A stretch of DNA of 33,294 bases from a virus. The first letter of the stretch is position 1. Every line of letters begins with the position of its first letter. Where the stretch lies: IMG/VR virus record IMGVR_UViG_3300034374_009892, positions 1 through 33,294 of that record. One strand, written 5' to 3'. Made by a program: the position numbers and the translations under genes. This document shows positions 1,316 to 30,515 of the stretch, piece after piece. The notes beneath the pieces are model-generated. The model was not told where the DNA came from. It made no database searches and worked only from the letters and a program-made list of their open reading frames with translations.

Positions 1316-1817
1316 TCACAACGAAGAAGCCACAGTGAGGAATTGGGAAGAGCTGCTGTCAGTTATCCGGGAAACAGATGCAACTTGTCATAACAACCTC
1401 CTTAAGTGCAAGCCAGAGAGAGTGAACAGGAGGACGGTAATTCTCTACTCAGCTCTAACTCCGAAACAGAATTTCGCATACAAAGAGGTTATAAGGGAAG
1501 CCTCCCGCAAGCTTTGGCAGCATAGGGTTGCCGTTAAGTGGCGAGAATTCCCTGAGGGCGATGAGTTCTTAAAGGAGGGGCACCCGAGACCTGCCCCCTT
1601 AATTGTTGAAGATATCAAAGATTTGCCGAAAGAGGCTTACCCTTTGCAGGCGAAAATTAGGGGGTTCTACCCGAACAATCGCATCATTTTGACGGAGCTA
1701 GGCAATGCTCGTTGTAAGGATGCCCGAGCCTTCGCTATGGGGATGGAGGTGGCTGTGACAAGGGAGGGTGATTGGCTGTTCGTCAAAGGGCTGCCCAGAA
1801 ACCGGTTTAAGTATTAG
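1308..1817 (+). CDS. Unknown protein in the small-terminase position
   Basis: I do not recognise this 169-residue protein. It starts inside the last codons of the preceding nuclease and its TAG shares one base with the GTG of the large terminase, so the three genes are probably translationally coupled. The middle is basic and helical (ALTPKQNFAYKEVIREASRK), and the C-terminus ends GLPRNRFKY. No helix-turn-helix typical of TerS is obvious. Its place directly upstream of the large terminase makes a small-terminase or packaging-accessory role the first hypothesis, from synteny only. Confidence 0.6.
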   Translation: MSSHNEEATVRNWEELLSVIRETDATCHNNLLKCKPERVNRRTVILYSALTPKQNFAYKEVIREASRKLWQHRVAVKWREFPEGDEFLKEGHPRPAPLIVEDIKDLPKEAYPLQAKIRGFYPNNRIILTELGNARCKDARAFAMGMEVAVTREGDWLFVKGLPRNRFKY

Positions 1818-3853
1818 TGGCAATTCAGTGGACTAAACACCCCATCCTTAAGCTGCCTACCGCTGAGCAGGTAGAAGCTCTCGGCGTAGAGAAGGCTTTT
1901 GACTTGTGGAAGCGCCGGGAAGCCCTCATTAAGGCCGAAAAGACCGATCCGTTTAACCACGGGATGGATTGGCACAACTCAGGCGGCCACTTCCAGCATT
2001 GGAAGGCAATGGATGAGCTGTTTGAGGATCCTGATATCACTACGATCTACCTATTCGGTGGAAACAGGTGCATTGAAGGGGGTACGCCTATCTATAATCC
2101 TTTAACGGGTGAAGAGGTTGCAGTTTCAAAGATTAAAGGAACGCACAAAGTTTTAGCCAAAGGTAAGGATTCAGAGCTTGTTACTGCTGATGCGTTGGAG
2201 CCTTTTGTAAAAGGTGAGGGCTTGTTTTTGGAGGTGTTCCTTTTAGGGGGCAGATCGTTTAAGGCCACAGAGCATCACAGGGTTATGCGCCGAACGGGCA
2301 GATATATTGCTGTTTCTGAATTACGTTGCGGTGACCAGCTTTGGAATCCATTAGGATATGATATTGTGACAAACATTAGGCCGGCTGGAGCTGGCCCTGT
2401 GTGGGATTTCAGGGTGCCATTCTATGACAATTACTGGGCTTGTGGGGCGGTCCATCACAACTCAGGAAAAACTGAGTACATGGCCAAGCGCCTCGTCCAA
2501 AAGATGGCTGCTACTCCTGGTTACGCCGCTTGGGTTGGTGGCTTGTCTGGTGAGAGCAGTATTCAGGTGCAGCAACACGCCATCCACCGCTACATCCCGA
2601 AGGAATGGGCAAGGCAGAGAAGGGGTGTGCGTCAGGTTAACAATATCGCCTTCACCCCGAAGAACGGCTTTTCAAATGGTTCCTTCATCGGCCCTAACGG
2701 CTCCTCCTGCCGCTTCAAAAATTACACACAGGATGTAAAGACGCTGGAAGGTGCTAACCTGGATCTTTTCTGGGCAGATGAGCTGGTTCCGCAGACCTGG
2801 GTGGAAACAATGAAATACCGTCTGATCGACCGTAGAGGAAAGATGGTGAACTCATTTACCCCCATCGAAGGATACTCCCCAACGGTTAAGCACGCCATGG
2901 CAGGCCATGTGGTCACTAAGTGGCTTCCCTGCGACAAGCGGGTGATGCCGGAAGGCAGGATGCCATTCATTGGTCGCACTCGGTCAGGTGATGCAATCAT
3001 TTGGTTTTTCTCAGAGCACAACCCTTACATCAGTTGGGATCACTTCAAAAAGTCGGCCCTGTCTGGCAAGACATCTACTGAGAAGGAAATCCGGGCCTAC
3101 GGCTACGTCAGGAACCCGATTGTCGGCAAGTTCCCACGCTTCGGGGATGCTCACATTGTTAAGCCTGAGCAGATCCCATCCGAGGGCACCAACTATATGT
3201 GCGTTGATCCGACCGGTGGAGATCGCAACTGGTTTATGGTTTGGCTGCGGGTGGACAACCTGGGCCGAATGTTCGTCTACCGAGAATGGCCGAACTTGGC
3301 CCGATACGGCGAATGGGCGGTTCCTAGCAGCAAAGCCGATGGTTCACCGGGGTCAGCTCAAAAGGCAGACTGCGGGCGCAACCTAGCTCAATACAGAAAG
3401 CTAATCCGCGAGCTGGAGAGGGGTGAGCGGGAGCCTTTAGTGCGTTACATCGACCCGAGGGCAGGCAAAGCGCCAATCTTATCGGCCAAGGAAGGCAACT
3501 ACAGCCTGATCGATCACCTAGCCAAAGACGTGGTAGATGCCGAAGACAACCTCAGCGAGCCGGGGATGGTTTTTATTCCGGCAGCTCACACCGAAATCGA
3601 CGAAGGCGTACAGGCAATCAACAACCTGTTGTCTTACAATATGGAAGAGCCGATAACGGTTCTAAACGAGCCGAAGCTCTACATCAGCGAAGAATGCGGC
3701 AATCTGATCTACTCACTGCGAGAGTGGACAGGTGAAGACAAGGACAAGGGAGCTTGTAAAGACCCTGCCGATGCATTACGTTACTTAATCACCATGGATC
3801 CATTCCACGTCTCTCCAGGGACATCCTACGACCAAGGCGGGGGCCACTACTAG
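1817..3853 (+). CDS. terL: Terminase large subunit (ATPase-nuclease) carrying an in-frame intein
   Basis: The DNA-packaging motor cuts concatemers and pumps DNA into proheads. The 678-residue precursor starts with GTG, which overlaps the previous stop. The Walker A loop is split: GGNR is at residues 81-84 and SGKT at 216-219, with a 131-residue intein between them. Joining the flanks restores GGNRSGKT and a host protein of about 547 residues, a normal size for this family. Walker B is LDLFWADE with Asp321-Glu322. The motor-coupling region is near NSFTPIEGYSP (about 345-355). The RNase H-like nuclease domain begins around CVDPTGGD (Asp464), and its late acidic residue is in DPADALRYL (Asp652). 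Without splicing the ATPase site would be disrupted. The portal gene follows five bases later. Confidence 0.92.
   Translation: MAIQWTKHPILKLPTAEQVEALGVEKAFDLWKRREALIKAEKTDPFNHGMDWHNSGGHFQHWKAMDELFEDPDITTIYLFGGNRCIEGGTPIYNPLTGEEVAVSKIKGTHKVLAKGKDSELVTADALEPFVKGEGLFLEVFLLGGRSFKATEHHRVMRRTGRYIAVSELRCGDQLWNPLGYDIVTNIRPAGAGPVWDFRVPFYDNYWACGAVHHNSGKTEYMAKRLVQKMAATPGYAAWVGGLSGESSIQVQQHAIHRYIPKEWARQRRGVRQVNNIAFTPKNGFSNGSFIGPNGSSCRFKNYTQDVKTLEGANLDLFWADELVPQTWVETMKYRLIDRRGKMVNSFTPIEGYSPTVKHAMAGHVVTKWLPCDKRVMPEGRMPFIGRTRSGDAIIWFFSEHNPYISWDHFKKSALSGKTSTEKEIRAYGYVRNPIVGKFPRFGDAHIVKPEQIPSEGTNYMCVDPTGGDRNWFMVWLRVDNLGRMFVYREWPNLARYGEWAVPSSKADGSPGSAQKADCGRNLAQYRKLIRELERGEREPLVRYIDPRAGKAPILSAKEGNYSLIDHLAKDVVDAEDNLSEPGMVFIPAAHTEIDEGVQAINNLLSYNMEEPITVLNEPKLYISEECGNLIYSLREWTGEDKDKGACKDPADALRYLITMDPFHVSPGTSYDQGGGHY
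2069..2461 (+). other. Mini-intein in the TerL Walker A motif
   Basis: This segment encodes 131 residues. The first is Cys85 (CIEGGTPIYNP, block A) and the last is Asn215 in AVHHN (block G), with Ser216 as the +1 extein nucleophile. Block B is SFKATEHHRV with the TxxH pattern (Thr151, His154). Block F is VWDFRVPFYDNYWACG, in which Asp replaces the more common His. At this length there is no room for a homing endonuclease, so it is a minimal splicing-only intein. Its codons look more T-rich than those of the flanking exteins. The boundaries follow from the restored GGNR/SGKT P-loop. All catalytic splicing positions seem present, so it is probably active. Confidence 0.9.
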
Positions 3854-3858
3854 GCCCT

Positions 3859-5928
3859 GTGACAGAAGATAAACTCTTAGAATCAACAGCCCCTAACGTC
3901 TCCGAGCTGGTAACAGATTTTACCAGATCATTTTCGGACCGCAGGGTTACCAACCGCATCCGAGAGGCTGACGAAAGCCGCTACGCCTATTGGCAAGGCC
4001 AAGCAGCCGACGGTAGAAAGCACGCCGTAAACTACGGCAGGCAGGTTTTCCCGTGGGAAGGTGCTTCCGACAGCCGCATCCACCTGGTTGATAATTACAT
4101 CAACCATTACGTGGCATTGCTGGCTGGGGCAGACAACCGCTGTGCCCTGAACGTCAATCCGGCTGAATACCAGGACGTAGAGAATGCCTCTGCTGTCCAG
4201 CTGTATATGAATTGGCTGGTTAGCACCCTGCTAAACCCTAGCTGGGATGATGAGCTGGAGCTGGCTCAGCAGTATGCAGCCCACTACGGATGGGCAGGTG
4301 TTCACACCCTCTGGAAGCGTTCCCAGCAGATGAGCCCTCGGGAGCTGACCATCGAATCAATGGCAAAGTCGATGGGGGTAGAGGATCCAGCAGAGATGGT
4401 GGCTGCTTTTGATCAGAACTCTGACATGCTGGCAGACATCTTTGCCACCTCAAACCCTCAGTTCAAAGTATCCGAGGTTAGGAAGAAATTTAAGGAGCTT
4501 CGCACTAACGGGAAGACTGTAATTGAAATGCCGGAAATAGTCTGTGACCACCCGGAAATCGTAACCCTAAAGCCGTTTTACGAGCTCCTATTCCCGCCTG
4601 AGACCAGAGAAATCCACCGAGCGCGGGTAGTCTTCAGGCGGGATTCATTTACTGTAGCAGAGCTGGAAGATAGGGCGCAGACCGATGAGTGGGATGAGCA
4701 ATGGGTTGAGGAAGTCAAAGCGACTGCTGGCCGATACATCAACCACAACGACGAAGGCATCAGCCCAGCCCAGCAGACCGTTGATTCTGCCAATGATCAT
4801 CAGAACATGGTTGAAGTCATCTATGCCTATTCTCGGCGGGTGGATGAGCATGGCCGGCCTGGTGTTTACCTGACGGTTTTCAGCCCTCACCACAAGAACG
4901 ATGACACGGGAGAGCCTTCCTACGCCAGCCATACGCTGGTTAAAGAGGCGGGCGGCAGGATTCCGATTGAGGTGTTCACCCGCGAACGGACAACTAGAGA
5001 GCTGTTGGAATCCCGAGGCATCCCCGACATCTGCGGGACGTGGCAAACGGAAATCAAAGGGCAGGTCGACATGGTGTTTGACCGCTCCAACCTAGAGACC
5101 TTGCCGCCACTGAAAGTGCCTCACCGCTACGGCAACCGCATTAGTGTTGGCCCAGGCAAACAACTCTCAGAGCAGAGACCGGGAGACATCACCTGGATGG
5201 AGCCCCCGAAAAAGGGGCCGGATGTTGCCTTGGCTAACATCGAAAGTGTTCGTCTACGTGCAGATGAGTATTTCGGCGTGCCGAATCCTGCAATTGATCC
5301 GGCTCAATCCCAGGTTAAAAACCAGATGCACGTCAGCCGCTGGCTGCGCTTTAAGGGCACCATTCTTAACAACGTCTGGGAGCTGGTTCAGAAGTTTGGC
5401 AACGATAAGGAATTCGGTGAGGTAACAGGCACGGGATTACCAATCCCAGAGGACACAAAGAAATACAATTTCAGCCTCTCCTTCGACATTAGGGAGTTGG
5501 ACAGCGAGTTTACCAACAACCAGCTGAAGGCAATCTCTGAGATCGTCTTACCGAATGACTTAGCTGGCCAGATTGACCGCAGAAAGCTGCTAGAGATGCA
5601 GCTGCGGATTATCAACCCAACCTTCCCTGAGCAGCTCCTGCTGGACAATAAGCAGGCCGCTCAGCAGATGTTTGAAGAAGAGAACAATACTGTCGCTTTG
5701 ATGGCTTTGGGTAATCAACCGCAGCTGCGGGAAAACGACCCATCAGCCCAGATCAGAGCGCAGTTTGTCAATCAGATCATTGGCAACAATCCGAAGTATA
5801 TGGAACTGATGCAGTCCGATCCGCAGTTTGTTGAGCTGGTCCAGACGTATATGAAAAACCTTAATATGTCTGTGATGCAGCAACAGAATGCAATGACGGG
5901 CCGGCTGGGTGTGAATCAAAATGGTTGA
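3859..5928 (+). CDS. Portal protein
   Basis: The portal forms the dodecameric ring at the capsid vertex through which DNA enters and leaves. The 689-residue length fits podovirus portals. Near residues 64-73 it has FPWEGASDSR, a motif I recognise from head-tail connector and portal proteins of P22-like and related short-tailed phages, followed by VDNYINHYVALLAG. The C-terminus is rich in Gln/Asn/Met (MSVMQQQNAMTG), consistent with the helical barrel at the end of such proteins. It begins with GTG five bases after the terminase stop and overlaps the next gene by eight bases. Position after terL and before the scaffold and capsid supports the call. Confidence 0.87.
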   Translation: MTEDKLLESTAPNVSELVTDFTRSFSDRRVTNRIREADESRYAYWQGQAADGRKHAVNYGRQVFPWEGASDSRIHLVDNYINHYVALLAGADNRCALNVNPAEYQDVENASAVQLYMNWLVSTLLNPSWDDELELAQQYAAHYGWAGVHTLWKRSQQMSPRELTIESMAKSMGVEDPAEMVAAFDQNSDMLADIFATSNPQFKVSEVRKKFKELRTNGKTVIEMPEIVCDHPEIVTLKPFYELLFPPETREIHRARVVFRRDSFTVAELEDRAQTDEWDEQWVEEVKATAGRYINHNDEGISPAQQTVDSANDHQNMVEVIYAYSRRVDEHGRPGVYLTVFSPHHKNDDTGEPSYASHTLVKEAGGRIPIEVFTRERTTRELLESRGIPDICGTWQTEIKGQVDMVFDRSNLETLPPLKVPHRYGNRISVGPGKQLSEQRPGDITWMEPPKKGPDVALANIESVRLRADEYFGVPNPAIDPAQSQVKNQMHVSRWLRFKGTILNNVWELVQKFGNDKEFGEVTGTGLPIPEDTKKYNFSLSFDIRELDSEFTNNQLKAISEIVLPNDLAGQIDRRKLLEMQLRIINPTFPEQLLLDNKQAAQQMFEEENNTVALMALGNQPQLRENDPSAQIRAQFVNQIIGNNPKYMELMQSDPQFVELVQTYMKNLNMSVMQQQNAMTGRLGVNQNG

Positions 5929-7268: not shown

Positions 7269-8303
7269 ATGGCATCTGGACTATTAGAACGAAATCAGAT
7301 CCACAAGCGCGAAGACGTGCTGGATTTGATCACTCGGACAGACGAAAAGCAAACACCGTTTACCTCTCGCGTAAGGAAGGGCCGAACGCCTCACAATACC
7401 TTTATGCAGTGGACGGTGGACGCATACGACCCCCCAAAGCTTGGCGGTGTTGTTGATGGGACCGACGTTTCCACCTTCGAAAACCACGCAGAGAACCGCG
7501 CAATGCTGCGCACCTATCTGCAAACCCACCGTCGAACGGCGAAGGTTAGCCCTGATGCACAAGAGGTGTCTGATGTGGCTGGTTTGAAGGGCGATGAAAT
7601 GTCTGAAGCAATCGCTAAGAAGCTGGAAGAGATCGGCCGCGACATCGAAGCAACCTGCCTTTCTGACCAAGAGCACCAGGAAGACGACGGAGCAGAAAAC
7701 CCGCGGCTTGGACGAGGGTTGGGTATCTGGATTCGGGACACAACCAACATTGCAGCTCAAACGCTGTATGAGGTTCCCGAGGCTTACCGACCAAACGCAA
7801 ACCAGATCGTCACCACGGCAACGGCGAACATCACCGAAGATGACATCCAAACTCTCTTCCAGGAAATCTACGACCAGACTGGTATGAGCGGCAGTTACGC
7901 CCTTGTCTGTGGTTCTACGCTTCGACGACGAATCACCGATATGACCCGGTTTGCGCAGTATGCAGACAGTGACGCTGCCAAGTTCAGCCGGCAGTTCAAC
8001 TACGATGGTGGTGGAGCCCGAGTTCGGAACTCTGTTTCGGTCTACGAAGGCGACTACGGCACCGTTGAGGTGGTCAGCTCCAACTTCATTGGAGCGGGTG
8101 CCCCTCCTGCTACGTTCGCAACCGACAAGGGCCGAGGCTACCTCCTGGACATGTCTAAGGTGGAGCTTGCCTCCTTCAAACAGCCAACCGTCAAACCTCT
8201 ACCGAACCTCGGTGGTGGTGAGCGGACTTACATCGAAGCCAAGTGCGCTCTTCGCATTCTGAATCCTCTTGGTTTGGGACAGTTCAACACAGCACTCAGC
8301 TAA
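7269..8303 (+). CDS. Major capsid protein, SU10-type (DUF5309-like)
   Basis: This 344-residue protein has the start I associate with SU10-like major capsid proteins: REDVLDLITRTDEKQTPFTS, then KGRTPHNTFMQWTVDAYDPP. A helix with RRTAKVSPDAQEVSDVAGLKG follows, then TCLSDQEHQEDD, a GSYALVCGSTLRRRI segment and a late YLLDMSKVELASFKQP beta region ending in a C-terminal domain. Such proteins adopt the HK97 fold and form the capsid shell. It lies 27 bp after the scaffold and 18 bp before the decoration-like gene. No N-terminal delta domain is seen, which fits the separate scaffold gene. Confidence 0.85.
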   Translation: MASGLLERNQIHKREDVLDLITRTDEKQTPFTSRVRKGRTPHNTFMQWTVDAYDPPKLGGVVDGTDVSTFENHAENRAMLRTYLQTHRRTAKVSPDAQEVSDVAGLKGDEMSEAIAKKLEEIGRDIEATCLSDQEHQEDDGAENPRLGRGLGIWIRDTTNIAAQTLYEVPEAYRPNANQIVTTATANITEDDIQTLFQEIYDQTGMSGSYALVCGSTLRRRITDMTRFAQYADSDAAKFSRQFNYDGGGARVRNSVSVYEGDYGTVEVVSSNFIGAGAPPATFATDKGRGYLLDMSKVELASFKQPTVKPLPNLGGGERTYIEAKCALRILNPLGLGQFNTALS

Positions 8304-23983: not shown

Positions 23984-24559
23984 ATGCATTGGTTTCAAAC
24001 GATTGACTGGAAATTAGGCCCACTGGCGGAACATCAGTTCCAGCCGTGGAAAATTATCATACTGACGAGGGGGCAATTTGCGGTGGTTGATCGGGCAGAT
24101 TATGAATGGTTGTCGCAGTGGAAATGGTGCGCCAAGTGGGCCCCCTGCACCAAGAGTTACTATGCCATTAGAGGTGTTCGACTCGGCAAGAAGATAAAAA
24201 CCGTTTTGATGCACCGAGAGATCAATAAGCCGGCAAAAGGGCAACACGTGGACCACGTTAACCATGCGACCACCGACAACCGCAGGGAGAACCTGGAAAA
24301 TATGAGCCCCCGAATGAACGCGCAGAAGCAAAAACGCAAACCGAAAACCAGCTGCCCAAAATTTGTCGGTGTCGGCTGGCACAGGCAGGCTAAGAAGTGG
24401 CGAGCAAAGATAGGCTGCAACGGTAAAACAGTTCACCTAGGCCTATTCACCCACCCCGCCGATGCAGCCGCAGCCTACAACTTCTACATCATCAAACACA
24501 ATCTGCCGGCCACCCTTAACGAGATCCCGCAGCCCGCTGGAGAGCTTTGTGTTGGGTGA
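23984..24559 (+). CDS. HNH endonuclease with AP2 DNA-binding domain
   Basis: This 191-residue protein is a phage-type HNH homing or mobile endonuclease. The HNH core is at residues about 74-110: TVLMHREI, then VDHVNHATTDNRRENLENMS with Asp90-His91 and Asn99. Residues about 127-170 form an AP2/ERF-like DNA-binding domain (FVGVGWHRQAKKWRAKIG, LGLFTHPADAAAAYNFY). Such enzymes nick or cut DNA at a long site and often spread between phages. It has its own operator-promoter and an AAAGGAA ribosome binding site. Its TGA lies inside the next operator-like palindrome. No intron can be seen around it, so it appears free-standing. Confidence 0.87.
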   Translation: MHWFQTIDWKLGPLAEHQFQPWKIIILTRGQFAVVDRADYEWLSQWKWCAKWAPCTKSYYAIRGVRLGKKIKTVLMHREINKPAKGQHVDHVNHATTDNRRENLENMSPRMNAQKQKRKPKTSCPKFVGVGWHRQAKKWRAKIGCNGKTVHLGLFTHPADAAAAYNFYIIKHNLPATLNEIPQPAGELCVG

Positions 24560-24676: not shown

Positions 24677-24704
24677 CTACTCTTCCTTGCTTTTTACCGA
24701 AAGA

Positions 24705-24718
24705 GGTGTATAGTCACC
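24705..24718 (+). promoter_or_regulatory. Operator-like palindrome with -10 (site 6)
   Basis: The sequence is GGTGTATAGTCACC, identical to sites 1 and 25908-25921. The identity with the latter extends to 18 bases (TTGT follows in both). TATAGT (24709-24714) is the -10 and TTGCTT, 16 bp upstream, a weak -35. It would start transcription into the hairpin-rich gene-free region. Confidence 0.62.
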
Positions 24719-25254
24719 TTGTAGTTGCTTCGGCGTATGCTCTAGGGGCCCGACCGGAGAACGATTAGCTGCTGGTAGCCAATCCAGCCGAGTCTTATCC
24801 CGGTATTCTAATGTTGAATCCGTTCAGGTAGCTCCTGAGTAGTAGGTGACCGACTAAGTTAGCATCCCCGAGGGTCGCAAGTAACGTAGGGGGTAAAAAG
24901 TTCTGAGGCTGGTTCTTCAGCCCGAATTGAGCGACGGAGCGCGTCAGACTCCACATAAGGTCCAATGGCCAGGCAGCCTGCTAAACCTTAAGTCGCTGTG
25001 AGAAATTCGATTTTCACCTGTCACTAAGACACTCCGATCGGCTCAAAGGGCAGATCAAAGAGGAAAGTGCAGCAGCCCTAAGACGGGATTGCTGTGCTTT
25101 CAACAGCTCCTCCTGGCTAAAGGGCAGGATAAAGAGGGAAATAACTTTGGGTCGGTTCGGTTGGTGGGCGTTAAATGCGACTTTAATACCCCTCATTAAC
25201 TGGACCGGCCCTTTCTTCTTACCTATTACAAACCGGCCACTGCTTTCCACTGGC
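24719..25254 (+). ncRNA. Gene-free 536-bp region, candidate large structured RNA
   Basis: No convincing gene with a ribosome binding site lies on either strand. Just downstream of a promoter-like site are several local hairpins: GCTGG/CCAGC (24771-24788), TCAGG/CCTGA (24824-24838), GGCTG/CAGCC (24907-24922), GACG/CGTC (24933-24945), a GUGAGAAA/UUUUCAC stem with one G-U pair (24998-25017) and TTAAA/TTTAA (25171-25186). It also has an imperfect 27-base direct repeat. I could not match it to tmRNA, RNase P or a full group I intron core. Large phage-associated RNA classes such as ROOL or GOLLD are possible but unproven. No clear terminator is seen before 25255, so the transcript may continue to about 25506. 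Confidence 0.45.
25040..25141 (+). repeat. Imperfect 27-base direct repeat pair
   Basis: The unit at 25040-25066 begins GGCTCAAAGGGCAG and ends AAAGAGGAAA. The unit at 25115-25141 begins GGCTAAAGGGCAG and ends AAAGAGGGAAA. They differ by a few one-base insertions and deletions. They start 75 bp apart inside the gene-free region and may be repeated RNA structural or protein-binding elements. Confidence 0.6.
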
Positions 25255-25268
25255 GGTGTATGGACACC
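25255..25268 (+). promoter_or_regulatory. Operator-like palindrome with -10 (site 7)
   Basis: The sequence is GGTGTATGGACACC, with TATGGA in the -10 position. No good -35 is visible. It precedes the short unit that ends in the inverted repeat at 25417-25501. Confidence 0.52.
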
Positions 25269-25274
25269 CGCGTT

Positions 25275-25506
25275 AGGCTGTCGGGGTCAACAGAAAGTTC
25301 GACTTTAAGATTGACAACAAAGGAGGGGTAGCCACAGTGAGCGTGCTGAACAGCGATAACTGTTTAGTGCCTACTGTTAAGCGGGGTAAGATCCCGCGGC
25401 TACAAATGAAACAGATAAAAAGAGCGTCGAAAGGTGATTATCAGTTACGGGTCTTGCCGGCTGAGAAATGGTTATCGCCCTTACCCTTCGGCGCTCTTTT
25501 TCTATT
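25275..25506 (+). ncRNA. Candidate structured RNA of about 230 nt
   Basis: The stretch between promoter-like site 7 and a strong terminator-type stem contains hairpins AACAG/CTGTT (25349-25364) and GCGGG/CCCGC (25381-25397). Within the terminator loop, GGTGAT can pair with ATCGCC. The density of structure suggests an RNA product. A short reading frame with a good ribosome site covers the same bases and is listed separately; the two calls compete. Confidence 0.35.
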
Positions 25507-25510
25507 ATGA
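25337..25510 (+). CDS. Possible 57-residue protein within the structured region
   Basis: A GTG at 25337 is preceded by AGGAGGGG (25321-25328) with eight bases between, one of the best ribosome sites in the window. The product is basic in the middle (VKRGKIPRLQMKQIKRASKG) and ends PLPFGALFLL. The last residues are encoded by the right arm of a strong terminator-like stem, which argues against coding. No family is recognised. It is either a small gene with an overlapping terminator or a chance frame in an RNA gene. Confidence 0.3.
   Translation: MSVLNSDNCLVPTVKRGKIPRLQMKQIKRASKGDYQLRVLPAEKWLSPLPFGALFLL
25417..25506 (+). terminator. Long inverted repeat ending in a U-run
   Basis: AAAAAGAGCGTCGAA (25417-25431) pairs with TTCGGCGCTCTTTTT (25487-25501) over 15 positions with one G-U pair. 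The loop is 55 bases and has an inner stem. The right arm ends in TTTTT, followed by CTATT. The complementary A-run and T-run mean it could terminate transcription in both directions. Confidence 0.7.
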
Positions 25511-25582
25511 CCCCATCCGTTCGGCCCTTAAGTGGGCTCCAAGCCTCCGAGGTTGTGAAGAGTAACTGCCACTTTTCACATT

Positions 25583-25682: not shown

Positions 25683-25823
25683 ATGACCATCAAACTCACC
25701 CCCAACCAGGCAGGCAAACTGAGAGACCTGTCCGAATACACCGGCCAAGACCCCCAGGAGCTCTTAGACAACTGGATTGACGAACTGCACAAGTCGTTAA
25801 CCGAGGTCAAAGAAGAGGAGTAA
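25683..25823 (+). CDS. 46-residue acidic helical protein
   Basis: The ATG follows GAGGAGGGG by five bases, a strong ribosome site, and the gene is followed 22 bases later by a strong terminator, so it forms a compact single-gene unit. The product starts MTIKLTPNQAGKLRDLSEYTG and continues with a helical QELLDNWIDELHKSLTEVKEEE. The pattern of a short strand and two helices recalls ribbon-helix-helix or small anti-regulator proteins, but it is too short and acidic to be sure. Its ribosome site is fully complementary to the CU-rich segment at 24619-24626. Confidence 0.65.
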   Translation: MTIKLTPNQAGKLRDLSEYTGQDPQELLDNWIDELHKSLTEVKEEE

Positions 25824-25845
25824 CCAACCCAATCTCCCCCTGATC

Positions 25846-25877
25846 GCCCCCACTTTTGCCGGTGGGGGCATTTTTTT
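25846..25877 (+). terminator. Strong rho-independent terminator
   Basis: An 8-bp perfect stem (GCCCCCAC at 25846-25853 and GTGGGGGC at 25862-25869) with an 8-base loop is followed by A and seven T residues. It closes the small-gene unit at 25683-25823 and insulates the next promoter. Confidence 0.88.
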
Positions 25878-25887
25878 GCAGAAACCA

Positions 25888-25921
25888 GGTAGCGTTACAC
25901 CTGGAATGGTGTATAGTCACC
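25888..25921 (+). promoter_or_regulatory. Operator pair and promoter upstream of the glycosyltransferase/HNH cluster (sites 8 and 9)
   Basis: GGTAGCGTTACACC (25888-25901) is an inverted copy of the AACG-type site, and GGTGTATAGTCACC (25908-25921) is the TATAG type with a -10 at 25912-25917. Start-to-start distance is 20 bp, about two helical turns. The -35 region is poor, so the promoter may need an activator or a phage factor. Confidence 0.62.
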
Positions 25922-25924
25922 TTG

Positions 25925-25952
25925 TCCCTGCTGGCTGTTCGGACGGCAGGGA
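25925..25952 (+). other. Hairpin at the 5' end of the cluster transcript
   Basis: CCCTGCTG (25926-25933) pairs with CGGCAGGG (25944-25951) through eight pairs including one G-U, flanked by T25925 and A25952. It would lie within the first few bases of the RNA made from the promoter at 25912 and could stabilise the message or act in regulation. Confidence 0.5.
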
Positions 25953-25968
25953 ACGGATGAGAAGCTAA

Positions 25969-26208
25969 GTGCTTTTCGAATTGGATACGTCATACAACAT
26001 GCAAGCGAGAGGGGTAATCTGTAGTTTGGTTCTAGGGTGCAATCTAGGCTTTTGCGCAGGCTACCTCTCTCGCCCTTCTTTGGATCCGAACTACATCCAG
26101 CTGATGAACGACCCCGGACACTTCGGGGAATACTTCTACGCACCTAACAGAGGCTGGATCATCTTAGATTTGCAAGTCGTTAACAGGAGACCTGGATACT
26201 ACAAATGA
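25969..26208 (+). CDS. Small protein upstream of a glycosyltransferase, unknown
   Basis: The protein has 79 residues from the GTG at 25969; an ATG at 25999 would give 69. Neither start has a good ribosome site. The frame holds a short hydrophobic stretch (VICSLVLGCNLGFCAGYL) with several Cys that could be a weak membrane anchor, then FGEYFYAPNRGWIILDLQVV. Its TGA overlaps the next ATG, which supports a real, coupled gene. No family is recognised. Confidence 0.5.
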   Translation: MLFELDTSYNMQARGVICSLVLGCNLGFCAGYLSRPSLDPNYIQLMNDPGHFGEYFYAPNRGWIILDLQVVNRRPGYYK

Positions 26209-27239
26209 GATTAGCCCATTTAGGATGTCACTCCGTGTTGGAGTTCGACGAGCTTCGGCTCTTTACTCAATTACCTGGCCTGGAAGTATTCTCTCCGGGT
26301 GCCTACCTGAACCCACAAGGGCTGGGAGATCGCCCGCCTATTCCCGAATTGAACTACAAACCGGAATGGTTAGATGCTTGGTCCAGGGTCCCGAGCGACC
26401 CAAGCCAACAGCCACCGTTAAGCGATCAGAAAGCTCATTTAACGAAGGAGTTTTTGGACCATTTCGATGCTGTCTACATCCAACATGTGCCCGCTTGGGT
26501 GACAAACAATTGGAAGACTCTAGAGGAGTGGGGTGGAGAGGTGTTCTACAGAGATATCGGGCAGTGTAACTTTGAGCAGGAACAGATGCTCCGGTATTAC
26601 GTTGACCGAGGCTTAAAGATCATCCGCTACAGCCCTAAGAACCGGATGGTCCCTAACTACGCTGGTGAGCATGCATTAATCCGCTTCTCTAAAGACCCCG
26701 ATGATTTCCTTCCCTGGGTCGGTGACAGGTTGCAGGTCATTACGATTGCACAATCAATGCAGGACAGAGAGCCTGCTTGTGGCTATGAACTGTTCCTCAA
26801 TAGCACTCGCCCGTTTCAGCGGGTTCTCTTCGGCAATAACAACCAATCCTCAGGCCCGTTATGGGGCGGCCAGCTGACTTATCAAAGGCTCATTGAACAG
26901 CTCTCCTGGTCGCGGTGCTATTGGTATTCAGGGACTTATCCGGCCCCTTACACTTTGAACGGGATGGAGGCAATGTTCGCTGGCACTCCAATTGTTGCCA
27001 TCGGCCCCAAACTAGCCCGCTTTCCGCATTACGAAGTAGCAGACCTGCTGGAAGATTGGGGGCTAGGTGATTGGGTTGGCGAAAGCACCCACGACCTGGA
27101 GAACCTTTGCCGGTTAACGCTGTCGATGGGCGATGAGGAGGCGAAGCAGCGGTCAGATGCCCTTAGGAAGGGAGCACGGGAAACATTCAGCTATGAAGCG
27201 GTTCTGCCGCAGTGGAAGGAGTTGTTTCGGTTATGCTAG
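26205..27239 (+). CDS. Glycosyltransferase-like protein (GT-B type)
   Basis: This 344-residue protein resembles GT-B glycosyltransferases in its C-terminal half. LFGNNNQSSGPLW may lie at the domain boundary, and YSGTYPAPYTLNGMEAMFAGTPIVAIGP (about 241-268) matches the sugar-nucleotide-binding region with Glu255. The N-terminal half begins RLAHLGCHSVLEFDELRL, with FDAVYIQHVPAW. The acceptor is unknown. It overlaps the small gene before it (ATGA) and the HNH gene after it by seven bases, in a tight cluster with another glycosyltransferase-like gene. It is more divergent than the GT4-like gene at 13370. Confidence 0.72.
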   Translation: MRLAHLGCHSVLEFDELRLFTQLPGLEVFSPGAYLNPQGLGDRPPIPELNYKPEWLDAWSRVPSDPSQQPPLSDQKAHLTKEFLDHFDAVYIQHVPAWVTNNWKTLEEWGGEVFYRDIGQCNFEQEQMLRYYVDRGLKIIRYSPKNRMVPNYAGEHALIRFSKDPDDFLPWVGDRLQVITIAQSMQDREPACGYELFLNSTRPFQRVLFGNNNQSSGPLWGGQLTYQRLIEQLSWSRCYWYSGTYPAPYTLNGMEAMFAGTPIVAIGPKLARFPHYEVADLLEDWGLGDWVGESTHDLENLCRLTLSMGDEEAKQRSDALRKGARETFSYEAVLPQWKELFRLC

Positions 27240-27838
27240 GTTGGTTTCTGTCGGTTGATTGGCGGGTTATTCCTTTGACGCAAAGCAAGTGGGCTTATGT
27301 TGATTTAGACTCATACCCTGAGCTGGCAAAGCATCGATGGCACGCTTCGGAGGTGACCTCAGGAGGGGCGTTTTACGCCAGAAGAGCAACCCGGAAGTCT
27401 TCGCCTGGCGGCAGGGAAATGATCTTTATGCATCGACAAGTCTCAGGCCCTGCCGCGAACGAGGTCGTTGACCATATCAACCACAACACGTTGGATAATA
27501 GACGTAAGAATCTGCGCAATGTTAGCCAACGAGCCAACCTTCAGCACGTTAACCCCAGCAAGAAAACCAGTCGCTATCGATGGGTCTCTCAGGAGAAACG
27601 GCTAAAGACCTGGAGAGTCTGTGTTCATCCGCAAGGCGGAAAGCGCCCAGCATGCCGGATGGCTGGGTTTAGAAATGAGCACGCCGCTGCATTTGCGGCA
27701 AACTGCGCTATGTCTCACTTCTTCCCCAACGACACTCTTAACCAGATTCCAGCTGATAAAACCCCGGCAGACGCCGACAAGATTGCGCTAAAGGCTTTTG
27801 CTGCTTGCGGCCAGTGGGAAGACGCTTACTTGCTATGA
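27233..27838 (+). CDS. Second HNH endonuclease, with a degenerate AP2-like region
   Basis: I place the start at the ATG at 27233 rather than the GTG at 27212, because AAGGAG lies 11 bases before it. The protein has 201 residues. It shares with the first HNH protein the N-terminal pattern WF-x3-DW (MLGWFLSVDW here) and the core MHRQ ... VVDHINHNTLDNRRKNL (Asp80-His81, Asn89), followed by SRYRWVSQEKRLKTWRV and HAAAFAANCA, which correspond to the AP2 part but are diverged. The two are probably paralogs. It sits between two glycosyltransferase-like genes, overlapping both (ATGCTAG and ATGA), so it may have been inserted between formerly adjacent genes. Confidence 0.8.
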   Translation: MLGWFLSVDWRVIPLTQSKWAYVDLDSYPELAKHRWHASEVTSGGAFYARRATRKSSPGGREMIFMHRQVSGPAANEVVDHINHNTLDNRRKNLRNVSQRANLQHVNPSKKTSRYRWVSQEKRLKTWRVCVHPQGGKRPACRMAGFRNEHAAAFAANCAMSHFFPNDTLNQIPADKTPADADKIALKAFAACGQWEDAYLL

Positions 27839-28770: not shown

Positions 28771-29255
28771 CTAACTTCGAACACTTCAAACAGGAGTTAG
28801 CCAAAAGCCATCAGACGGTCTACGCCGTTGCTCACTGGCTTACTGGCCGAGGTTACGCAGTCACATTGCCCCCTCATTCAGTAGCTGAACGGCCCGAGGA
28901 TTGGGAGCAGTACGCTGACAGCGGTGACTTACACTTGCACCTGCGCTTAGAAGTTAAACGCCGTCAGATCGACTTTACTTGCCAAAAAGACTTTCCATTT
29001 CCCGACATTATGGTCAGCGCTAAAGCCGTCTACGATCGGGCAGACCCAAAGCCATCCACCCATTACATGGTCAACAAGGCCGGCACCCACATGGCAGTGA
29101 TTCGGCAAACAAGCAGTCAATATTGGGAGGTGCGGATGGTGAAGGACAAGCGAGGACACAGCAAAGAGGTTTACCACTGCCCGATTGAACACGTCAGCTT
29201 TCAGTGCCTGCCAAGTGCCCTTCCCACACCTTCCAATACTCCTCCGACTGCTTAG
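28767..29255 (+). CDS. PD-(D/E)XK nuclease-like protein
   Basis: This 162-residue protein has the order expected of a small PD-(D/E)XK domain: a helix (VYAVAHWLTGRGYAV), Asp54 in DSGDLHLHLRLEVKRR, and Glu62-Val-Lys64 as ExK, then FPFPDIMVSAKAVYD and beta strands. The region AKAVYDRADPKPSTHYMVNKAGTHMAVIR recalls uncharacterised phage nuclease-like proteins rather than a restriction enzyme. It overlaps the glycosyltransferase-like gene (ATGA) and converges with the integrase, overlapping it by 62 bases at the 3' ends. Confidence 0.6.
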   Translation: MTNFEHFKQELAKSHQTVYAVAHWLTGRGYAVTLPPHSVAERPEDWEQYADSGDLHLHLRLEVKRRQIDFTCQKDFPFPDIMVSAKAVYDRADPKPSTHYMVNKAGTHMAVIRQTSSQYWEVRMVKDKRGHSKEVYHCPIEHVSFQCLPSALPTPSNTPPTA

Positions 29256-30114
29256 GCGTAGCCAATCCTCGGTAGTGTCGATGGATCATTTCCGGGCTAT
29301 TCCCCAGCTGATCTGCCACCTTCTGCTCTGAAGAAAGGTAGTGCACCATGTGGGTTGCTGCCGTATGCCGCAGGACATTCCTTGGCCAACTGGAAATGCC
29401 TGCTGCTGTGTGGATTGCGGTGAATCGCTTGCGGAAATTCCGACGCCATTTTAAGTGCAGCAGAACCATTCCTTTTTTTAGTAGTGGCCCAGGGATTGAA
29501 ACCAGCCGTCTGGACCTGTTTTTTGCAATCTCAGAACTGATCTCCAAAACGCAAAGATCAGCCTTCAAAGCCCTCGGTTGCAGCTTAAATGCCTCGGCCC
29601 GTCTCACTCCGAGGGCACCACACAGCCAGACGTACTCCAGCAGCTCAACGTCTTGCCGTTTAACGGCTTGCAGGAGGTGGGACAGCTGTCTGTTACTGAG
29701 AATGAAAGGGTTGAGTGTAGGCTGAGCGACAGTCTCCAGCCGATCCGTCACAACCTCCTGGCACCAACCTCTCCGCTTACAGAACCGGAAGAAAGTCCTT
29801 AGCCGAGCCAGTTCTGTCTTGCGGGTTGGGGCACTACTTTTTTGTAAAAAACCCTCTACTTCTGAAAGAGTGACATCGGCCACCCATTTGCTGCCCCCGA
29901 TTGCTGCGGCAAAGCGGAAGGTGAGCCATTCTAATTGCCGCACATATTCGGCGGATCTGCCGGCTGATTGTTTTGCTTTGACCAGCTCTAAGGCGGCCTC
30001 CTGCAACGGCTTAGGCGTGCTGCCTTTAGTGGCTTTGTAGTGGTTCCACAGCTCAGAAATGCTAATGCCGGCTGCTTCGGCTTGTGTGATGGCCAAGCGA
30101 TCCAAAGAGTTCAT
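29194..30114 (-). CDS. int: Tyrosine recombinase integrase
   Basis: This 306-residue protein has an N-terminal SAM-like core-binding domain (about 35-125) and a C-terminal catalytic domain. Catalytic positions are Arg171 (GVRRAEAF), Lys198, Asn246-x-x-Arg249-His250 (WPRNVLRHTAATH), Asn272 in GNSPEMIHRHY and the nucleophile Tyr281. Asn replaces the usual His at two places. I associate both changes with a verrucomicrobial integrase subfamily and do not read them as inactivation. It catalyses integration at attB, probably a tRNA-Val gene. The start codon lies three bases after the CCA end of the tRNA fragment, so its ribosome site (GGAG, 12 bases upstream) would fall inside the tRNA sequence. 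Confidence 0.92.
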   Translation of the reverse strand: MNSLDRLAITQAEAAGISISELWNHYKATKGSTPKPLQEAALELVKAKQSAGRSAEYVRQLEWLTFRFAAAIGGSKWVADVTLSEVEGFLQKSSAPTRKTELARLRTFFRFCKRRGWCQEVVTDRLETVAQPTLNPFILSNRQLSHLLQAVKRQDVELLEYVWLCGALGVRRAEAFKLQPRALKADLCVLEISSEIAKNRSRRLVSIPGPLLKKGMVLLHLKWRRNFRKRFTAIHTAAGISSWPRNVLRHTAATHMVHYLSSEQKVADQLGNSPEMIHRHYRGLATPKQSEEYWKVWEGHLAGTES

Positions 30115-30117
30115 AGA

Positions 30118-30162
30118 TGGTGCACGCTCCAGGGTTCGAACCTGGGACCCCTACCGTGTGAA
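30118..30162 (-). other. Putative attP core: 3' half of a tRNA-Val(CAC)-like gene
   Basis: Read on the minus strand, these 45 bases match the 3' half of a tRNA exactly in geometry: 7-base anticodon loop TTCACAC (anticodon CAC, T at position 33), GGTAG stem half, 5-base variable loop GGGTC, T stem CCAGG, loop TTCGAAC, CCTGG, acceptor half AGCGTGC, discriminator A and CCA. No matching 5' half (CTACC or GCACGCT) lies upstream, so it is not a full tRNA. A perfect 3' half next to the integrase is the hallmark of an attP that restores a host tRNA on integration. The identity may start in the anticodon loop. Confidence 0.8.
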
Positions 30163-30265
30163 GCCGTGGCTATTGCCATGCGTGGAGCAGGCTAGGGGCG
30201 GGAGTGTGGTTTTTATTTAGGGGTTAGACAGCCCGTGTCCCACCCTATCTGATAAGCTTGTTTAA

Positions 30266-30445
30266 ATGAGTCGTAAAACCAAAGTTGTAATTGACCCTAC
30301 CCTCACCGACCGGCTGCGGAAGGCTTGCCCACCTTCGCTCTCGCTCCAGCAATTTGCTGCTTCTCTGCTCGTTTCAGCTCTACGGAGAGAAGGTCACTTA
30401 CCAAACTCGTCATATCAGTCCCGGTGCGCTCAGCGTGAGCTTTGA
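30266..30445 (+). CDS. 59-residue ribbon-helix-helix-like protein (plus strand)
   Basis: The frame starts MSRKTKVVIDPTLTDRLRKA, a strand and first helix as in Arc/MetJ-type ribbon-helix-helix repressors, then SLSLQQFAASLLVSALRREG as second helix, and a short tail. It has no Shine-Dalgarno. A weak promoter (TAGACA at 30225-30230 and TATCTG 15 bp later) lies just before it. It overlaps the minus-strand gene at 30303-30515 by 143 bases; possibly only one of the two is expressed. If real it is a candidate regulator of integration or of the operator family. Confidence 0.45.
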   Translation: MSRKTKVVIDPTLTDRLRKACPPSLSLQQFAASLLVSALRREGHLPNSSYQSRCAQREL

Positions 30446-30515
30446 TCTCATCCTTTAGGTCTTGGTCGATGAATAGATTAAACGGAACTTTGTTCTTGGC
30501 TCGTTGGTTTGGCAT
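30303..30515 (-). CDS. 70-residue ribbon-helix-helix-like protein (minus strand)
   Basis: The product is basic and contains KVPFNLFIDQDLKDEIKAHA, a beta strand and first helix, then TGTDMTSLVSDLLSVELKRA as second helix, and a Lys/Ala-rich tail (EKQQIAGARAKVGKPSAAGR). This matches CopG/Arc-type ribbon-helix-helix DNA-binding proteins, and better than the opposite-strand frame. It points toward the integrase and is preceded, on its own strand, by a degenerate operator-like site at 30586-30599. It lacks a clear Shine-Dalgarno. It is a candidate repressor or toxin-antitoxin-type regulator. Confidence 0.62.
   Translation of the reverse strand: MPNQRAKNKVPFNLFIDQDLKDEIKAHAERTGTDMTSLVSDLLSVELKRAEKQQIAGARAKVGKPSAAGR

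Follow-up and report, generated by a model that had tools for sequence, protein, structure and literature searches.

The window analyzed here, a single virus record of 33,294 bases from an environmental metagenome, encodes a major head protein (7269-8303) together with tail and amidase genes, two HNH endonucleases (23984-24559 and 27212-27838), an integrase (29194-30114, minus strand), and exonuclease VIII (31855-32763), and is therefore taken to be the genome of a temperate tailed phage. Flanked by the structural genes and the integrase is a gene-poor section, 24719-25254, which is the subject of this analysis. Adjoining the start of the integrase is a partial tRNA sequence, its 3' half (T arm plus acceptor end, GGTCCCAGGTTCGAACCCTGGAGCGTGCACCA; 30119-30165, minus strand), which is likely the attP core; no exact match to it occurs in the bacterial genome collection, and a search of the window for tRNA genes found none beyond this partial 3' end at about 30119-30165. 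A 70-aa open reading frame nearby (30303-30515, minus strand) weakly resembles RepB-type regulators (E 0.003, a match below the cut-off) and could possibly encode a DNA-binding regulator.

The preliminary description of this DNA had placed a promoter-like palindrome in front of the gene-poor section, and this is borne out: GGTGTATAGTCACC occupies 24705-24718, immediately 5' of it, and belongs to a family (GGTGTNNNGNCACC) with 17 matches in the window against 2.2 expected (both strands, at most one mismatch; 0 of 100 shuffles). GGTGTATAGTCACC recurs at about 11 places. Members of the 14-bp palindrome family lie at 875, 6182, 23928, 23956, 24555, 24705, 25255, 25888, 25908, 30653, 30676, and 31223 and come in two variants, with a TATAG or an AACG core, frequently 20 to 28 bases from each other. 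The copies at 875, 24705, 25908, and 30653 contain the TATAG hexamer oriented to the downstream gene, and besides the one at 24705, palindromes of the GGTGTATAGTCACC type stand upstream of two further structured stretches. A related phage species, whose capsid protein is 79% identical, has the identical 14-base palindrome at the corresponding site beside the terminase region and a second copy directly 5' of an oppositely oriented HNH gene. Because the enclosed TATAG points to downstream genes and the element has been kept in the related species, we read the palindrome as a putative promoter with an overlapping operator for a phage regulator. Its recurrence, the two additional structured stretches, and its conservation so describe an array of phage-regulated units, not one RNA. 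On contig L059 of the related species, the terminase-region open reading frame (1524-4070) has an intein-like insert bearing an HNH gene (1831-2559); this gene is encoded on the opposite strand, and a palindrome copy of its own lies a few bases before its ATG. The features of the section and its surroundings are collected in Table 1.

Table 1. Features of the candidate RNA and of the units next to it
Feature	Coordinates	Strand	Content or evidence
Promoter-like element	24687..24718	+	TTGCTT, 16 nt, TATAGT; second hexamer within palindrome GGTGTATAGTCACC
RNA-b, candidate structured noncoding RNA, ~500 nt	24720..25222	+	Strand-specific fold z, no coding signal, no Rfam match
5' arm of possible 10-bp closing helix (partner 25220-25229)	24839..24848	+	Pair probability 0.93 in 24719-25250
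Hairpin GUGAGAA AUUCGA UUUUCAC	24998..25017	+	Pair probability 0.95
Repeated hairpin, copy 1	25032..25063	+	CUCC-GAUC-GGCUCAAAGGGCA-GAUC-AAAGAGG; predicted fold
Long hairpin separating the copies	25063..25101	+	13+3 bp; pair probability 0.98-1.00
Repeated hairpin, copy 2	25107..25137	+	CUCC-UCCU-GGCUAAAGGGC-AGGA-UAAAGAGG; predicted fold
3' hairpin	25132..25220	+	18-bp stem with five G-U pairs, A/G-rich versus U-rich arm extension, then UUUCUUCUU; predicted fold
Second promoter/operator-like palindrome	25255..25268	+	GGTGTATGGACACC; member of the enriched palindrome family
RNA-c, second structured unit	25277..25512	+	Fold z -4.6 on +, -4.9 on -; inverted repeat
RNA-d, third structured unit, 3' of palindrome 25908-25921	25926..26090	+	Fold z -3.4 on +, -1.3 on -

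The predicted fold of RNA-b contains at least nine helices with a pair probability of at least 0.9, which bears out and exceeds the initial count of at least six hairpins. The 10-bp helix pairing 24839-24848 with 25220-25229 may close the whole multi-branched domain, only if transcription passes 25220. In the hairpin at 24998-25017 the loop appears T-loop-like. Three hairpin loops in this part of the genome have the T-loop-resembling form AAA-NNCGAY-UUU (25003-25014, 25173-25184, and 25299-25311), and two of the three fit this pattern exactly, where 0.16 such matches would be expected. The purine-rich element that had been described as repeated is indeed present twice (25045 and 25119), but it is contained in something larger, since what is repeated is actually an entire hairpin. 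Both copies share an outer CUC/GAG stem, an AAA or UAAA internal loop, and a GGCU(C)AAAGGGC cap; their middle stems differ (GAUC/GAUC versus UCCU/AGGA), yet both fold to the same shape. When the middle letters are filled at random, this shape appears in 5.6% and 7.7% of fills, or about 0.4% jointly. The duplicated hairpin is the strongest local evidence for structure, evidence that supports a shape and not textbook compensatory change, because the stems of the two copies are offset by one base when aligned. The hairpin that follows the second copy is likely an intrinsic terminator, which would place the end of the RNA near 25220; its U-tract is interrupted by C residues.

The transcript therefore probably runs from about 24720 to about 25220, or about 500 nt, with separate units as its neighbors. 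A length of about 780 nt, with read-through to 25506, had been proposed earlier, and this finds no support: the span crosses both the likely 3' hairpin at 25132-25220 and the palindrome at 25255, and because that palindrome begins a second unit with a terminator-like hairpin of its own (25417-25501, plus TTTTTCTATT), a 780-nt RNA would probably be two units. RNA-c, the second unit, also contains a 57-aa open reading frame that begins with GTG (25337-25510, plus strand) and has a good ribosome-binding site. Downstream of it, a 46-aa open reading frame (25683-25823) scores as real by codon usage. RNA-d, the third unit, may be the leader of the operon that starts at 26205.

Given its folding on the plus strand, its twin hairpins, its lack of coding signal, its promoter-like start, and its terminator-like end, 24719-25254 is best read as a structured and probably noncoding transcript. 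The most likely form of this reading, to which we give an even chance, is that RNA-b is a stand-alone structured noncoding RNA of about 500 nt. The main rival, which we rate as unlikely, is that the section encodes a long, structured RNA of the leader or antitermination kind, carried in cis on transcripts from the palindrome promoters and controlling read-through or translation downstream. Such a leader would have candidate targets in the 57-aa and 46-aa open reading frames and, for RNA-d, in the operon from 26205, and RNA-d does lie directly between a palindrome and that operon. Hairpins with U-rich tails follow one another near 25220, 25501, and 25869, and the AAAGAGG of the duplicated hairpins has the choice of pairing with the CUC of its own hairpin or, in the second copy, with the U-rich tail of the 3' hairpin, which is an alternative-pairing layout. 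However, no convincing gene stands behind RNA-b before the palindrome at 25255, the codon signal of the 57-aa frame is weak, and Rfam provided no match to a riboswitch or leader family.

The stand-alone reading has its own difficulties. The 5' 180 nt of RNA-b (24719-24898; fold z 0.06) are not unusually structured, a generic sigma-70 promoter scan did not list the site at 24687-24718, and no homolog was found. The nucleotide search for homologs that the preliminary description had envisaged as a check, run against phages, plasmids, and contigs of the related species, returned only the palindrome and chance matches, so that none came to light outside the same phage in the collections searched. 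The duplicated hairpin, sought across IMG/VR, matched 31 stretches; both copies occurred together only in the same phage, and the rest were chance matches. Searching IMG/VR by the flanking proteins gave no homolog beyond the same phage, and scanning it for the palindrome recovered contigs of the related species (species B) that end before the RNA region. For 24719-25254, these searches recovered only identical sequence from the same phage. A noncoding stretch of species B (contig L069, 7690-8060) was considered as a homolog and rejected as unstructured (z -0.9). Bacterial genomes were also scanned for a prophage or host, with the capsid protein and the attP-like tRNA end as queries, and none emerged.

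The other main rival, which we rate as equally unlikely, is that the section is ordinary noncoding or decayed accessory phage DNA, which folds by chance or through relic hairpins and has no RNA function. This would accord with the absence of homologs in the searches above and with the two HNH genes, at 23984-24559 and 27212-27838, which mark mobile insertions. It also draws on the folding statistics, in which coding windows do equally well or better. Relative to shuffled sequence, the fold z is -4.0 for 24719-25254 and -5.4 for 24719-25506. Overlapping 250-nt windows on the plus strand across 24895-25395 range from -3.0 to -5.4. When the whole record was divided into 65 non-overlapping 504-nt plus-strand windows as a control, the RNA-b window ranked 4th of 65 and the following two ranked 6th and 5th; the three that fold better than RNA-b (starting at 5567, 31775, and 6575) are all coding. 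No other three consecutive windows in the genome are as foldable together as those from 24719, a result matched in extremity by about 10% of permutations when the run may fall anywhere and by 0.16% at this prespecified place. RNA-b does fold beyond what its composition predicts on the sense strand, an excess that coding windows similarly reach. Folding energy by itself is therefore suggestive and not decisive, since coding windows go lower and about 10% of permutations are as extreme. Elsewhere, 31770-32020 and 5520-5770, which lie within or between coding genes, fold unusually strongly whichever strand is taken.

Several features nonetheless argue against inert DNA. The folding is biased to one strand (for 24719-25222, z is -4.1 on the plus strand versus -1.1 on the minus strand), the two copies of the duplicated hairpin share a shape, the promoter palindromes are clustered, and other noncoding stretches of this phage (23645-23770 and 30270-30520) have a fold z near zero.

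A small protein gene on one strand or the other would be a much poorer explanation. The section does hold open frames of 53 aa (25147-25308, plus strand), 78 aa (25014-25250, minus strand), and 56 aa (24795-24965, minus strand). When the codon usage of the phage itself served to score open reading frames against real and spurious ones, however, those in 24719-25254 fell at the 71st to 82nd percentile of spurious frames and the 1st to 3rd percentile of real ones. All three frames score as spurious, they begin at GTG or TTG, and most have no ribosome-binding site. The section has no coding signal by this test, which agrees with the original impression that it holds no convincing gene, and we regard a protein product as very improbable.

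Known RNA families offered no identity either. The Rfam covariance models, run over the whole window, gave nothing at gathering score, and a permissive search at E ≤ 10 gave nothing credible within 24719-25254, so the earlier failure to match any known class holds up for ROOL, GOLLD, group I introns, tmRNA, and RNase P alike. With no match at the sensitivity of Rfam, tmRNA and RNase P were rejected as the identity of the section, as was a group I intron, for which no covariance model matched. Weak matches to GP20-a (25373-25424) and SgrS (25779-25876) are far below the gathering score and were treated as chance; the SgrS site is the terminator of the 46-aa gene. That RNA-b might belong, in divergent form, to one of the known large classes (GOLLD, ROOL, or group I intron), as its size, phage setting, and neighboring HNH gene would allow, is largely refuted at the sensitivity of Rfam and scarcely credible, there being no covariance match even with permissive filters to E 10 and no tRNA gene in the window.

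If RNA-b is the stand-alone RNA that we favor, its transcription would start just 3' of the TATAGT embedded in the palindrome at 24705, pass through the multi-branched domain and the two hairpin copies, and end near 25220, at the long 3' hairpin. The palindrome at 24705 would also serve a phage regulator as its operator, so that RNA-b would be switched together with the other palindrome-bearing units. RNA-b would then most likely be a trans-acting RNA whose fold binds a protein, as a scaffold or a decoy, possibly by means of the duplicated hairpin. An antisense role was rejected, because the complementarity of RNA-b to the phage start regions is within chance, being no better than that of shuffled RNA. 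Transcription, termination, the operator role, and protein binding are all steps that we infer; the sequence features, the foldability of one strand, the missing coding signal, and the recurrent and conserved palindrome are direct observations.

To our knowledge, very few large phage RNAs have been described, and the function is not settled for any of them. If RNA-b does represent a new class, its clear promoter element and duplicated module would make it tractable to study. A bolder and rather unlikely version of this idea is that at least three structured noncoding RNAs form a regulon in this phage, each driven from a copy of one operator-like palindrome, and that the largest represents a new class of about 500 nt whose duplicated hairpin module binds a host or phage protein. 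At present RNA-b, known from a single phage species, has its value as a lead. The observation itself is sound, and the structured-RNA interpretation is plausible but unproven; with no relatives of the stretch found, the modeled shape and proposed role of RNA-b are those of a candidate from one phage.

How does RNA-b compare with systems already known? ROOL, GOLLD, and OLE are large ornate RNAs, and GOLLD and ROOL are encoded by phages or prophages, several hundred nucleotides long, multi-branched, without a protein product, and of unknown function (PMC12286853). RNA-b shares their general phage setting and size range, a likeness by analogy only, with no match in sequence or covariance model; at about 500 nt it is shorter than GOLLD RNAs, which often exceed 800 nt, and than the ROOL example of 659 nt. 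Thus, of the early suggestion of a large structured noncoding RNA like ROOL or GOLLD, the structured and probably noncoding character stands, and the kinship finds no support, as RNA-b differs from both in having neither a covariance-model match nor a tRNA island. Proximity to a tRNA island is frequent for GOLLD and ROOL and not strictly defining. The antitermination leaders of the HK022 put and lambdoid nut type are folded RNAs placed directly after a phage promoter, and RNA-b likewise lies directly 3' of a promoter-like element, but put is far smaller and RNA-b has no operon directly behind it. For the palindrome, the nearest comparison is with the stoperators of mycobacteriophages, repressor operators scattered through the genome as one short repeated element, often near transcription starts. 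Although the element described here has a 14-bp palindromic form, a TATAGT-like core, and a cognate regulator that is only presumed, it too is a short element that the phage has repeated many times.
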